From: Candidatus Poribacteria bacterium
GTDB taxonomy: Bacteria > Poribacteria > WGA-4E > WGA-3G
NCBI GenBank assembly: GCA_026702755.1
Contig: JAPPBX010000007.1
Location: 1 to 54,591 of the forward strand
Direction of reading: 5' to 3'
Length of the DNA: 54,591 nt
Position 1 is the stretch's first letter, and each line of letters opens with the position of its first letter. Made by a program: the position numbers and the translations under genes. This document shows positions 30,997 through 35,764 of this stretch, piece by piece. The notes under the pieces were generated by a model. It did not search any database. It saw nothing but the letters and a program-made list of their open reading frames with translations, and was not told where the DNA came from.

Positions 30997-33204
30997 CTAC
31001 CGAGTCTGGGGATTAACGACTGGTTGTGGCGTGAGAAGTAACGTCATGCGACGATCCTCGGTTAGGTATCGGTTGACGGCGGTGGCAACATCAGCGGCGG
31101 AGACATCGGCGAATGCACTCGCGAGCTGCGATAAGTTCCCACCAAATTGGTATTCTATTGTTCCCCAACGCACACCGAGCTGAAGGAGCATCAGAGCCTC
31201 CGGCACATTCTCTGGTTTATATTGCATGAGCGTTTTCATGTCCGGCGGTGCACCGAGTTCCTTGGAAAGGGACTGGGCAACCATAGGGACCTGCGTGTTG
31301 TTTTCCGGTTGTTTTAATGGGTTCATCAACTGCCGTACCCGCTGCTTAACCTTTTCTATATCTGTACCCAGTTTGAGTGAGGCACTGACGTATAAGTAGA
31401 CCTGTTCAGGTGTAACGAGATCAACACCACAGTGAATGTAACCTGTCAATTCCTTCAATTGGGCATCCTGTGTGCAGGCTAACCGCCACATCAGACTCGC
31501 TATATAGAGCGCGGGGTAGTCTTTGTTTTCAGGGTGAGGAATTGGGTAGGTTTCCATGTAATGGGTTACATTGATATCCCAAGTAGCATTTTGATCTTTT
31601 GCTATTTCTGGAGGGACTGTTGGCGTGGGAAAGGCTTTCTCGGTTAAGTTAATAGTTCCGAGTTGTGTTTCCATAGTGTCTTTCAGTGTCTCGGGATCAA
31701 CACCACCAATGACGCACAAAAGGACGCTATCAGCTTGGACGAGATGCTGATCGCGATAGTCTTGGAGTTCACTGAGTTGTGCTGATTGAATGCCTCGGCG
31801 CATCGCTATATCGGTTTCACCATGTCGAAAGACTTGATTCCACGCAACATCTGCCAACTTATGCGTTGCCAAGTTCGTTTCGATATAGTCAAACTGGGAC
31901 AAGACTCTTGGGAGTTCCTCAGCAAGACTTTCTGCTGAAAACGGCAGTCTGGAAAGCCATTTCGCATGTCGTGCTAAACTCTGGGTCCATGTATCTTTCC
32001 CGCCCCAAGACTCTAAGCGCATGTTATCAGCCATTGTTTCGGCGTTACTTGTTTTGAAATCAATGGGTCCTGTGGTTCGGACGGTCAGATGATTAATGAG
32101 ATGGCTCCAATATGCCCTTGCTTTCCCATCAGTGACGAGTCCAAGGGGCAGATAACTGAAAATACCGACATCCGTGGAATTTTCGACATGGAGATTGACA
32201 ACTCGGATACCGTTGCTTAACGTAAAGCGCGTCACTTTAGGTGTGGTATTAGCACTAAGCAGATTAGGGAAGTCCTCTGATGCATTAGGTGCTAAGACTT
32301 CCTCAGAGATCTGTGAGTCTACACTACTGTTTTTACCGGGGGTGGCAGCCTGCCCGATTTGATTTCGCACAGCCGGTTTTGCGTCGGTTTCAAGAACAAC
32401 AGCCGCCTCAATAATTTCAATAGTAGGCTCGGCTTGCGCCTCAAAACTATACGGTCGCTGGAATCTGACGAGGTATTGATGACCTGCACCGAGCAGCAAT
32501 ATAATCAAAACCGTAGCTGCACCCAAAGACACCCATGGCAGTAACGGTTTTCCGGTCGGAGAAGCTCCCGGTTCTATGTCAACAACTTGCCGCATGATGT
32601 TTTCAAGTAGGTTACCAGACAATTGCAAGCCGCCAAGCGTTTCGTTAATCAAGAGTTCTTCCGACGCTTGTAAACGCTCCCGCGCCCGTTGGAGCCGACT
32701 CGTAATCGTATTCACTGATACCCCAATGAACTTGCTAATTTCCCTTGTAGACATCTCGCCGAGATAGTAGAGTGTCACCACAGTCCGCTCGCTCTCTGGC
32801 AATTTTTCCAGAAGTTGCTTGACGATTTCATGACGACGCTCGGTTGCTTCTGTCTCGCGTTGTTCCAACATATAACGCTCATAAGTTAGTTTATCTATTG
32901 CTTTCACAGACGCGTCCCCCAGCGGTTGCATCGCAGGTCTCTTCTTTCGGAGCCAATCGGTGCATAGATTATTTGTAATGACATAGAGCCATCCAGCAAA
33001 TTGATGGGGATTCTTGAGTGTGGAGAGTTTTTCATAAGCTTGAAGGAAAGTGTCTTGCGTAATTTCCTCAGCATAATGAAAATCACCGATCTTCCGCCAT
33101 GCGAGGGCGTGAACACTCTTTTGGTATTTTTGAACCAAGGTGCTGAACGCCTCATCGTTGCCAGACAAGATGCTGTGAATCAACTGAACGTCATTCTTCT
33201 CCAT
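30997..33204 (-). CDS. ECF sigma factor fused through a membrane helix to a degenerate M16 peptidase domain
   Basis: 735 residues. Residues 1-185 are an ECF sigma factor: region 2 about 20-90 (EEITQDTFLQAYEKL) and region 4 about 125-180 (LPESERTVVTLYYLGEMS, a helix-turn-helix). One hydrophobic span lies at about 224-243, and the rest is an M16-type domain, probably outside the membrane. The zinc motif HxxEH reads HLINH (368-372): Glu is replaced by Asn, and the downstream Glu reads Gln. It is therefore probably catalytically dead. The next gene (33260) is the intact paralogue of this domain. The likely role is a membrane-bound regulator that senses something through a pseudopeptidase; that is inference. 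A G-rich ribosome site precedes the ATG. Confidence 0.85.
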   Translation of the reverse strand: MEKNDVQLIHSILSGNDEAFSTLVQKYQKSVHALAWRKIGDFHYAEEITQDTFLQAYEKLSTLKNPHQFAGWLYVITNNLCTDWLRKKRPAMQPLGDASVKAIDKLTYERYMLEQRETEATERRHEIVKQLLEKLPESERTVVTLYYLGEMSTREISKFIGVSVNTITSRLQRARERLQASEELLINETLGGLQLSGNLLENIMRQVVDIEPGASPTGKPLLPWVSLGAATVLIILLLGAGHQYLVRFQRPYSFEAQAEPTIEIIEAAVVLETDAKPAVRNQIGQAATPGKNSSVDSQISEEVLAPNASEDFPNLLSANTTPKVTRFTLSNGIRVVNLHVENSTDVGIFSYLPLGLVTDGKARAYWSHLINHLTVRTTGPIDFKTSNAETMADNMRLESWGGKDTWTQSLARHAKWLSRLPFSAESLAEELPRVLSQFDYIETNLATHKLADVAWNQVFRHGETDIAMRRGIQSAQLSELQDYRDQHLVQADSVLLCVIGGVDPETLKDTMETQLGTINLTEKAFPTPTVPPEIAKDQNATWDINVTHYMETYPIPHPENKDYPALYIASLMWRLACTQDAQLKELTGYIHCGVDLVTPEQVYLYVSASLKLGTDIEKVKQRVRQLMNPLKQPENNTQVPMVAQSLSKELGAPPDMKTLMQYKPENVPEALMLLQLGVRWGTIEYQFGGNLSQLASAFADVSAADVATAVNRYLTEDRRMTLLLTPQPVVNPQTR

Positions 33205-33259
33205 CAGAACCCCCCATAATGCATCAACACAACGACTGAATTTCTACTAATGCCTCATA

Positions 33260-34567
33260 TCACTCCAACGTCCGCGGTGTGAGAAGCAATGTCATCCGTT
33301 CATCTTCGGTCAGATACCGATTGACAACATCGGCAACATCCGCCGCGGAGATATTGGCAAACGCCTTCGCCAGGTGCGGTAAAGTATCGCCATATTGATA
33401 TTCAAGCATACCCCACTGTAAACCGATATTCCCAAGCATCATAGTTTCTGTCATACCTGCAGATTTGTATTGCTGCATAACCATCGTTATGTCCGGCGGT
33501 GAACCGAGTTCCATCGAAAGTGCCTGGGCGTACATCGTTACCTGCGCGTTGTTCGCTGGTTGCTTTAGTTGGTTTATCAACTCTCTAATCCGCTGCTTAA
33601 CGTTTTCTATATCTGTATCCGGTTTGAGCGAAGCACTGACATATAAGTATATCTGTTCAGGCGTGATAAGGTCAACCCCACAGAAAACGAGTCCAATCAA
33701 TTCCTTCAATTGCACATCTTGCATGCAGGCTATTCGCAACAGCAGACTCGCCATATAAAGTGCTGGGTAGTCTCTGTTCTCAACGTTGGGTATCGCGTAA
33801 GTTTCCATGTAGTGGGTTACGTTGATATCCCAAGTGACAACTTGGTCATTCGCTGTCTCCGATGCTGCTGTTGCTGGCGGAAGTGTTTTTGCCATTAGGT
33901 TGATAGATCCGAGTTGTTCTTCGATTACTGGCTGTAGTGTTTCCGCCTTAACTCCACCGATGACACATAAAAGCACCCGATCCGCTTGGAGCAAGTGTAG
34001 ATCTCGGTATTCCTGTAATCCACGCAACTGTGCTGATTGAACATCACCGCGCATTGATATGGCGGTTTCACCATGTCGAAAAACTTGATTCCATGCAGCG
34101 AACGCCCATTTGTGCGTCGCTAATCTCGTTTCAGTAGCGTCAATCTCGGACAAGGCCTTCGGTAACTCCTCGGCTAAACTTTCTGCTGAAAATGGCAATC
34201 CAGAAAGCCATTGTGCGTGTCGTTTCAAACCCTGTGTCCAATTATCGGTGTTACCGATGAAATCCAAGCGCATGTTATCAGCCATTGTTTCTGCGCCACT
34301 CGTTTTGAAATCAATGGGTCCTGTGGTTCGGATTGTCAAGTGTTCAATCAGATGGCTCCACTGTGTTTTTGCTTTTCCATCCGCAACAAGCCCAAGGGGC
34401 AAATAACTGAAAATCCCCACATCTGTGGAATTTTCAACATAGAGATTGACAACCTTAATGCCGTTGCTTAATGTAAAGCGTGTCACCTCAGGCGGTGCAG
34501 CGGAAGCGAGAGAAAAATTGGCAAGGATAAGGAATGCGACGATGGCGTGTTTAATTCTGTTAATCAT
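33260..34567 (-). CDS. exported M16-family metallopeptidase, intact HxxEH
   Basis: 435 residues from ATG 34567, which follows GGAGG; a longer frame starts 26 residues earlier without a good site. Signal peptide about 1-23 (ending SAA). HLIEH (72-76) is the M16 inverted zinc motif, and ELPKALSEIDATE about 65 residues on may supply the third ligand. It lines up along its whole length with the M16 part of the sigma fusion directly downstream (55 bases). M16 enzymes cut short peptides inside a clamshell, and many work as pairs of active and inactive halves. It may process a signal for its sigma-fused partner. Confidence 0.8.
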   Translation of the reverse strand: MINRIKHAIVAFLILANFSLASAAPPEVTRFTLSNGIKVVNLYVENSTDVGIFSYLPLGLVADGKAKTQWSHLIEHLTIRTTGPIDFKTSGAETMADNMRLDFIGNTDNWTQGLKRHAQWLSGLPFSAESLAEELPKALSEIDATETRLATHKWAFAAWNQVFRHGETAISMRGDVQSAQLRGLQEYRDLHLLQADRVLLCVIGGVKAETLQPVIEEQLGSINLMAKTLPPATAASETANDQVVTWDINVTHYMETYAIPNVENRDYPALYMASLLLRIACMQDVQLKELIGLVFCGVDLITPEQIYLYVSASLKPDTDIENVKQRIRELINQLKQPANNAQVTMYAQALSMELGSPPDITMVMQQYKSAGMTETMMLGNIGLQWGMLEYQYGDTLPHLAKAFANISAADVADVVNRYLTEDERMTLLLTPRTLE

Positions 34568-34671: not shown

Positions 34672-35247
34672 TTACCCATACACCTTCTTAAATTTTGGGA
34701 GACAGCGGGTAAACAGTGCAACAGCCTCTATATCTTGACGTTCAGGTGAAAACTGATAAACATCGTTGCCTTTTCTTTCATAGGAAAGCGCGTAGAGTCC
34801 GCTTGCCTGCCGACCGATCGCTATAACTCCAAAAGCATTTCCACCGACCCGAGGGGTTACCCCAGTTGAACCTGTAGAAATAGCGATAAGCCCAACAGCA
34901 GCGGCATTTCCAAAAGCGAAACCCCCCGCGGATATTACACCGATCGAGATGATCCCGCAAGATACGGTGCCAATAGCAATCACACCACAAGAAACAGCAC
35001 CAATCGAAACAACTCCAAAAGAGACCGCTCCGAAAGAGACAATACCGGATGAAATTGCGCCAAAAGTTATGTCACCCAATAGAAATGGCGTAATTTCGGT
35101 TTTGACAAGTTCTAAATATGCCGCTATGCCGTACGCCAAGAAAGGCAAGAAAGCCAAAATCAATAAAACTGCTTCCGATATATGCCACCTTAGAATGTAC
35201 GCGTCAAACGTTTTTTTGAAAGTTTCCGAGTTAAAAGTTTTTGACAT
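34672..35247 (-). CDS. membrane protein with glycine pentad repeats
   Basis: 191 residues from ATG 35247, after AGGAGAAAAAAG. A hydrophobic span (25-46) is followed by eleven five-residue units (62-116) of the form x-G-[AIV]-[VI]-[SA], for example FGAVS and CGIIS. A hydrophilic C-terminus (150-191) follows. The pentads are unlike classic A-[DN]-L-x-x pentapeptide repeats but could build a similar beta-helix, or a tight glycine-packed membrane stack. It is upstream of the M16 gene on the same strand (104 bases). I do not know the family. Confidence 0.6.
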   Translation of the reverse strand: MSKTFNSETFKKTFDAYILRWHISEAVLLILAFLPFLAYGIAAYLELVKTEITPFLLGDITFGAISSGIVSFGAVSFGVVSIGAVSCGVIAIGTVSCGIISIGVISAGGFAFGNAAAVGLIAISTGSTGVTPRVGGNAFGVIAIGRQASGLYALSYERKGNDVYQFSPERQDIEAVALFTRCLPKFKKVYG

Positions 35248-35764
35248 CTTTTTTCTCCTATTTATAGGACTGTAGAATTCAGGTAAACCACATAAATACT
35301 GAAGCAAAACACATAGTATCGTTAAAACGAAACGATTGTTTTACCCTTTGATTGTCTAATGACGTAATTTGGGTACTGAAAACGTGCATAATCTGAAAAA
35401 AAATGAAAATTATCTGAATTTTTTAGCCGTTTTTCTCCAAAGGTCGGATTTCAAACGCGCAATAAACCGCCGACTGCGTAGGGACCCGGAGCACTCACAT
35501 ACAATACCACAGATGTTGTTATTTTTTTCTTAGATGTTGATTAATGAGGACGAGACAGGGACGAGATCCAAAATATTAACAACACTGTGCCGATTGAAAT
35601 CATATATTAAGTATTCTGGATTCAAATGGTTAAAAGGAGTGTGGGATTTGAAATTCGGTTGCTACCGAGATAACGTTCATCTATAGTAAACGATACACGT
35701 CAATCGGCGCGCCTACAAAGCGCGCCTACCAGTGGGTGTTCATGTAATTTTAACGTGAATTCGC
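35248..35764. other. 517-base gap, no clear gene, one REP-like hairpin
   Basis: The region is AT-rich. A 50-codon plus-strand frame (35534-35686, from an ATG without a ribosome site) is not convincing. A GGCGCGC / GCGCGCC hairpin followed by CTACC lies at 35706-35726, close to the end of the isomerase gene. It probably holds the leader and promoter of the minus-strand gene at 35247, but no consensus pair stands out. Confidence 0.5.
35706..35726. repeat. REP-like hairpin GGCGCGC / GCGCGCC
   Basis: Seven-base perfect arms around CTACAAA, followed by CTACC. The same arm sequence is found in the tail codons at 12160-12176 and in the hairpin at 12083-12103. Confidence 0.6.

Follow-up and report, generated by a model that had tools for sequence, protein, structure and literature searches.

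The present analysis deals with two adjacent genes, at positions 30997 to 34567, of the window, i.e., the whole 54,591-nucleotide contig JAPPBX010000007.1 (54.6 kb). The downstream gene encodes an extracytoplasmic function (ECF) sigma factor joined through a single membrane span to an M16 peptidase domain whose catalytic Glu is lost. The upstream gene encodes an exported M16 protein in which this residue is retained. The rule found in this pair, i.e., a dead copy fused to the sigma factor and an intact copy standing alone, holds in at least three unrelated enzyme families and in every genome checked. The architecture, the loss or retention of the Glu, the selection on the dead domain, the tandem order, an upstream promoter-like motif and the recurrence of the rule in M61 and redoxin enzymes are observed. 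On this basis, there is about an even chance that the fused pseudo-enzyme serves as receptor for the target of the intact enzyme and that the sigma factor induces its own operon; sensing is the part of this reading that goes beyond the observations. The features of the pair are the following:

30997..33204, minus strand: fusion gene (ECF sigma factor, single membrane span, M16 pseudopeptidase), 735 residues
32650..33204, minus strand: ECF sigma-70 domain, residues 1-185, regions 2 and 4 intact (Pfam, dN/dS)
32488..32544, minus strand: membrane span, residues 221-239 (hydropathy 2.25 over 19 residues)
32356..32475, minus strand: conserved extracytoplasmic juxtamembrane segment, residues 244-283, common to fusions of the transmembrane (TM) type
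31021..32244, minus strand: M16 pseudopeptidase domain, residues 321-728 (identity to the neighbour, dN/dS)
32089..32103, minus strand: HLINH (368-372) replacing HxxEH in the fusion
31894..31896, minus strand: Gln437 replacing the third zinc-ligand Glu in the fusion
33260..34567, minus strand: stand-alone exported M16 peptidase, 435 residues, upstream gene of the pair, separated by a gap of 55 bp
34499..34567, minus strand: signal peptide of the stand-alone M16, about residues 1-23 (sequence, hydropathy peak)
34340..34354, minus strand: HLIEH zinc and catalytic motif (72-76), intact, in the stand-alone M16
34145..34147, minus strand: Glu141, third zinc ligand of the stand-alone M16 (alignment with HP1012)

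Both open reading frames (ORFs) lie where a preliminary description of this DNA had placed them. The sigma part of the fusion matches TIGR02937 (E 1.8e-29) and the Pfam families Sigma70_r2 at 23-89 (E 6.5e-14) and Sigma70_r4_2 at 126-178 (E 4.7e-16), both nearly full length. Regions 2 and 4 are thus intact (a region 4 lacking DNA-contact residues would have contradicted the preliminary description), and regions 1.1 and 3 are absent, as defined for ECF sigma-70 factors. The single span announced earlier is present, at residues 221-239 and not at about 224-243. It was also right that the two M16 domains are alignable throughout: they share 69% identity across 413 aligned residues with one gap. 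The alignment confirms the motifs read earlier in the fusion and in its signal-bearing neighbour, since HLIEH (72-76) and Glu141 of the stand-alone protein correspond to HLINH (368-372) and Gln437 of the fusion.

The spacing between the first His and the third ligand is 69 in both copies, compared to 76-80 for several M16B proteins already known (PMC12731061). In the alignment with Helicobacter pylori HP1012, Glu141 nevertheless falls on the VVxE glutamate, i.e., the third ligand. The stand-alone M16 has a hydrophobic signal-like N-terminus and scores above the M16_C cut-off (34.8 bits); the Peptidase_M16_C match of the fusion (22.0 bits) is just below the curated cut-off of 23. The AlphaFold model of the stand-alone protein (pLDDT 84.6) displays the two-domain M16 fold and its top Foldseek matches are M16B peptidases (E to 4.5e-19). 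The model of the full-length fusion (pLDDT 44.6) was not used.

The host is Candidatus Poribacteria, and the 91% identical protein of its relatives is found in Candidatus Poribacteria metagenome-assembled genomes. The M16 protein has matches in 37 of the 85 genomes of the phylum, all within one family and two genera. The loci were fetched from the genomes and the motif states were read off the alignment of 28 intact fused and 30 stand-alone M16 copies. HLIEH and Glu141 are present in 30/30 stand-alone copies. The Glu of HxxEH is present in 0/28 fused copies, where it is replaced by Asn (19), Met (7), Ser (1) or Thr (1). The third-ligand position of the fused copies is mostly Gln or Gly, Glu being retained in 7/28. 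These catalytic states recur in dozens of genomes, which excludes chance or a sequencing artefact.

The fusion is directly downstream of the stand-alone M16, on the same strand, in 23/28 cases, with a gap of at most 170 bp in 22 of them. Two of the remaining five fusions are at contig ends. The other three have no adjacent copy: none is found for genomes G083 and G084, and that of G040 is on another contig. Thus the adjacency of an HxxEH paralogue, proposed earlier for checking, is frequent and not constant. Lone fusions exist, and none of them keeps HxxEH; the combination held in the preliminary description to contradict its proposal (no neighbour and HxxEH kept) is not encountered. Conversely, the three-contig genome G081 has a stand-alone M16 only and no fusion. 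Two peculiarities of the M16 genes must be mentioned. One fused M16 gene is apparently split by a frameshift (L126:2881-5036). Five stand-alone M16 genes (L123:6720-8774, L125:6002-8056, L127:5747-7948, L132:6651-8720 and L143:9090-11147) encode about 250 extra C-terminal residues, for which no clear Pfam match was obtained.

The ratio of non-synonymous to synonymous substitutions (dN/dS) is 0.10-0.22 for the fused M16 domain, 0.12-0.26 for the stand-alone M16 and 0.05-0.21 for the ECF domain. The dead M16 domain is under purifying selection. Among 406 comparable columns, position 75, i.e., the catalytic Glu, is the best separator of the two groups (Jensen-Shannon 1.0), and 52 invariant columns are common to fused and stand-alone copies. 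In the tree of the N-terminal half, all fused copies are on one side of a branch (SH-aLRT 95), whereas fused and stand-alone copies are mixed in that of the C-terminal half. The full-length tree needs two changes, and the approximately unbiased (AU) test gives p=0.027 against one clade. A single origin of the fused M16 was thus not retained from the whole-domain tree, the N-terminal half supporting one clade and the C-terminal half being mixed. In one genome pair, the synonymous divergence (dS) is 0.22 in the ECF part vs. 1.2 in the fused M16 part. Since one half separates the groups and the other mixes them, M16 copies seem to recombine. Recombination between neighbouring or related copies, with the catalytic asymmetry preserved, would be the simpler reading of the tree conflict.

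Three further enzyme families were tested, i.e., M61, redoxin and GHL15. HExxH is absent in 29/29 fused M61 and present in 22/22 stand-alone M61 covering the site, and CxxC is absent in 25/25 fused redoxins and present in 18/18 stand-alone redoxins covering the site. One redoxin that seems to break the rule is the latter part of a fusion interrupted by a frameshift. The trees need one change for M61, two for redoxin and one or two for M16; the independent evidence thus amounts to about four losses or slightly more, each kept across many genomes. For GHL15, the Asp of DGxxxD, a putative catalytic residue, is kept in 32/32 stand-alone copies and replaced by Ala in 4 fused ones. GHL15 was not retained as a clean fourth case, because its catalytic residue is not established and because of one exception (LRR-GHL15, see below). 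The rule was also rejected for a DnaE fusion: PDIFIDF replaces the catalytic PDIDIDF in this genome, but most orthologous fusions retain PDIDIDF.

Three side observations concern these families. A fused redoxin gene is apparently split by a frameshift (L175:8684-10958). At L047:9024-10763, a stand-alone redoxin has a strong N-terminal hydrophobic stretch and the neighbouring fused copies are spanless; the two forms may be in different compartments. An exodomain swap is seen at L135:4526-7198 and L117:1285-3957, where a gene downstream of a stand-alone M16 has the ECF-TM module, with 82% identity to that of the window, but LRR-GHL15 in place of M16.

The region upstream of the pair contains two additional features:

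34672..35247, minus strand: small membrane protein gene with Gly/Ser-rich repeats, upstream of the M16 gene (start taken as the ATG at 35247)
35361-35388, minus strand: ECF-type promoter-like motif TGCACGTTTTCAGTACCCAAATTACGTC (TGCACGTTTT...CGTC), single match in the 54.6-kb window

The upstream motif is TGCA-N3-TTT-N13-15-YGTC, and its spacing is that expected of an ECF promoter. In the window it is located 114 bp upstream of the small membrane protein gene, which itself precedes the M16 gene and probably belongs to the same transcription unit. The window match taken alone is not significant, 0.30 being expected by chance in 54.6 kb. The significance of this predicted promoter is in its conserved position across genomes: the motif is found upstream of 25/30 M16 operons and of 22/27 redoxin fusions. 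Within 400 bp, it is found for 13/53 fusions vs. 7/309 control ORFs (Fisher p 1.2e-7). In several M16 operons the motif is likewise some 750-870 bp upstream.

A search of the whole genome with the fusion gave about 50 further ORFs matching residues 1 to about 300. After removal of fragments, 47 ECF fusions remain, 36 of them having a membrane span. The M16 fusion is thus one of 47, many with beta-propeller exodomains, a context that goes beyond the preliminary description. The TM-type fusions share the juxtamembrane consensus YLxRFQxPYSFxAxSExTvEIIDApiVLD..KPdxRNQ, independent of the exodomain. The C-terminal domains comprise: (i) propellers (BNR/sortilin-like, WD40, kelch, PD40 and two-component-regulator); (ii) M16, GHL15, M61 and redoxin; (iii) some unassigned domains. 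A stand-alone homologue of the C-terminal domain is near 18/47 fusions, always on the same strand (partners were sought within 7 kb, and the matches include a few partial ones). Exported partners generally accompany TM-type fusions.

Other members or relatives of this family were noticed. Loci L034 and L035 (G000 C17:136000-169665) contain at least 7 ECF-TM fusions within about 30 kb, mostly of the propeller type. One ECF factor of this family (L053:5567-7288, G000 C24) carries an entire DnaN sliding clamp as its fused part, with 58% identity to the stand-alone DnaN of the genome. A different ECF subfamily is fused to FtsZ and a truncated DnaE (1347 residues; L058:3454-7497, G000 C51) and to a truncated FtsZ (406 residues; L053:11963-13183). 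ORFs of a length similar to these FtsZ/DnaE fusions occur in dozens of genomes of the family.

The mechanism proposed for the receptor is as follows. The peptide cut by the active enzyme would be bound by the dead M16 domain; without the Glu, the fold and often the His ligands would be kept, but hydrolysis would cease. Binding would be passed on through the conserved juxtamembrane segment and would alter or free the sigma domain; a site-2 protease, for which the genome has a gene (one strong M50 match), may well take part by cleavage. The sigma factor would then transcribe its own operon, and the exported active peptidase would destroy the ligand and end the signal.

Several points weigh against this receptor reading. 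In G083 and G084, each consisting of a single contig, the fusion is present and a stand-alone M16 is lacking from the whole genome, thus feedback by the stand-alone enzyme is not universal. The canonical Arg/Tyr substrate-binding pair of M16 is not seen in either copy (in an alignment made by eye, the corresponding positions are an invariant Lys288 and a variable 295), so that the peptidase activity of the stand-alone protein is only putative. Fusions to M61 and redoxin are spanless, hence the dead-copy rule is independent of the membrane, and the motif is upstream of 0/27 M61 fusions. One GHL15 fusion (LRR-GHL15, at two loci of one genome, L117 and L135) retains the putative catalytic Asp. 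Many members of the family have a non-enzymatic propeller and lack a partner gene next to them. What the dead domain senses might be the stand-alone enzyme and not its substrate. Finally, the host cells are uncultured.

The adjacency of the two M16 genes also fits an M16B-type heterodimer at the membrane, in which assembly, occupancy or cleavage would control the sigma factor. Most prokaryotic M16B peptidases are heterodimeric with one HxxEH-bearing chain (PMC12731061), and the best structural matches of the stand-alone model include subunits of the pairs PA0371/PA0372, TTHA1264/1265 and SPH2681/2682. However, the two M16 genes are not always together as in an obligate M16B heterodimer (fusion alone in G083 and G084, stand-alone alone in G081), and M61 and redoxin, which do not use M16-type pairing, follow the same rule. 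An obligate heterodimer is weakened by these solitary copies and by this recurrence, and a heterodimeric control of the sigma factor is considered unlikely, with perhaps one chance in five or slightly more. The two-protein device put forward in the preliminary description is thus kept in part, i.e., the conserved two-gene unit, the tethered sigma factor, the dead exodomain and the exported M16 of active type, and its heterodimer principle is weakened.

That many fused domains copy the adjacent gene whatever its fold, including kelch, WD40-like and PD40 propellers, is in favor of a decoy: the fused copy would mimic the exported enzyme and monitor inhibitors, attackers or failure of export or folding, the sigma factor then making more enzyme. 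The other ECF factors fused in this genome to DnaN, FtsZ and DnaE copies point in the same direction, substrate sensing being less natural there. Nevertheless, no attacker is known, and a need to bind without turnover accounts better for the catalytic residues lost in three enzyme families; a decoy appears a little less probable still than the heterodimer. It is very improbable that the fused M16 is a passive tether or relic, i.e., a peptidase that a promiscuous ECF-TM module picked up and that then degenerated, having no function, regulation residing elsewhere in the protein. The module is indeed joined to many unrelated C-terminal domains, and the catalytic sites of fused M61 and redoxin vary freely, but the dN/dS values along the dead M16 domain and the invariant columns shared with the stand-alone copies, as well as conservation in two genera, are opposed to decay.

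ECF factors with fused transmembrane extensions are already known (PMC8999054). ECF48, ECF52 (e.g., SCO4117), ECF53 and IutY (ECF243) likewise combine sigma factor, span and extracytoplasmic part in one polypeptide, and proteolytic release was shown for IutY (PMC8999054). They differ in carrying a zinc-finger (ZAS) or fused anti-sigma region, whereas the exodomain here is an inactivated version of the enzyme encoded next to it. The 35-residue linker of the fusion (186-220) contains no Cys or His, i.e., no ZAS zinc finger, and the fusion has no anti-sigma Pfam match. RsgI, the anti-sigma-I of Clostridium thermocellum, is similar in that variable extracellular sensors, among them glycoside hydrolase and peptidase-like domains, control a sigma factor across the membrane with RseP cleavage (PMC12203970). 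It differs in being a separate anti-sigma protein for sigma-I, and a family-wide dead copy beside an intact one is not described for RsgI in the part of that source consulted.

In BlaR1/MecR1, substrate is trapped by an extracellular sensor related to class D beta-lactamases, which leads to induction of the gene encoding the active enzyme (PMC9834060, PMC5957439). The impaired enzyme domain and the adjacent enzyme of active type are BlaR1-like features, as a likeness of working and not as membership. On the contrary, the output of BlaR1/MecR1 is a metalloprotease acting on a repressor, and the sensor is not a recent copy of the neighbouring enzyme. BlaR1 and RsgI thus indicate that enzyme-like sensors can work in the proposed way. 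M16 pseudopeptidase partners are already known (PMC11266112, PMC12731061), and the M16B heterodimers (SPH2681/2682, TTHA1264/1265, PA0371/0372, MPP) share with the window pair the fold and the co-encoding of active and HxxEH-less chains. A fused sigma factor is absent from all described pairs, and in the present family either copy may be found alone. In the open-access papers searched, which are an incomplete set, no account of these Poribacteria fusions, no joint mention of Poribacteria and ECF sigma factors and no account of a fused dead copy beside an intact one were found. Their novelty is probable.

Extended to the phylum, the receptor reading describes a general class, which is judged slightly less likely than not to be correct as a whole: in Poribacteria the ECF(-TM) module would have repeatedly gained local enzyme copies which lost catalysis and kept the fold, each sensing the target of its neighbour and switching on its operon directly, with no separate anti-sigma factor. 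Isolated examples of dead-enzyme receptors, such as BlaR1, are known; the lineage studied here appears to use them routinely. The putative sensor is joined directly to the sigma factor, and the intact enzyme next door provides a built-in control. Each pair predicts its own ligand, i.e., the target of the neighbouring enzyme, and its own promoter, thus direct tests of signal specificity, an unknown for most ECF factors, become possible. The pairs also offer a comparative test of pseudoenzyme function, the fold being kept and only catalysis lost within one operon. These results suggest that the cells of sponge-associated Poribacteria use dead enzymes as receptors.

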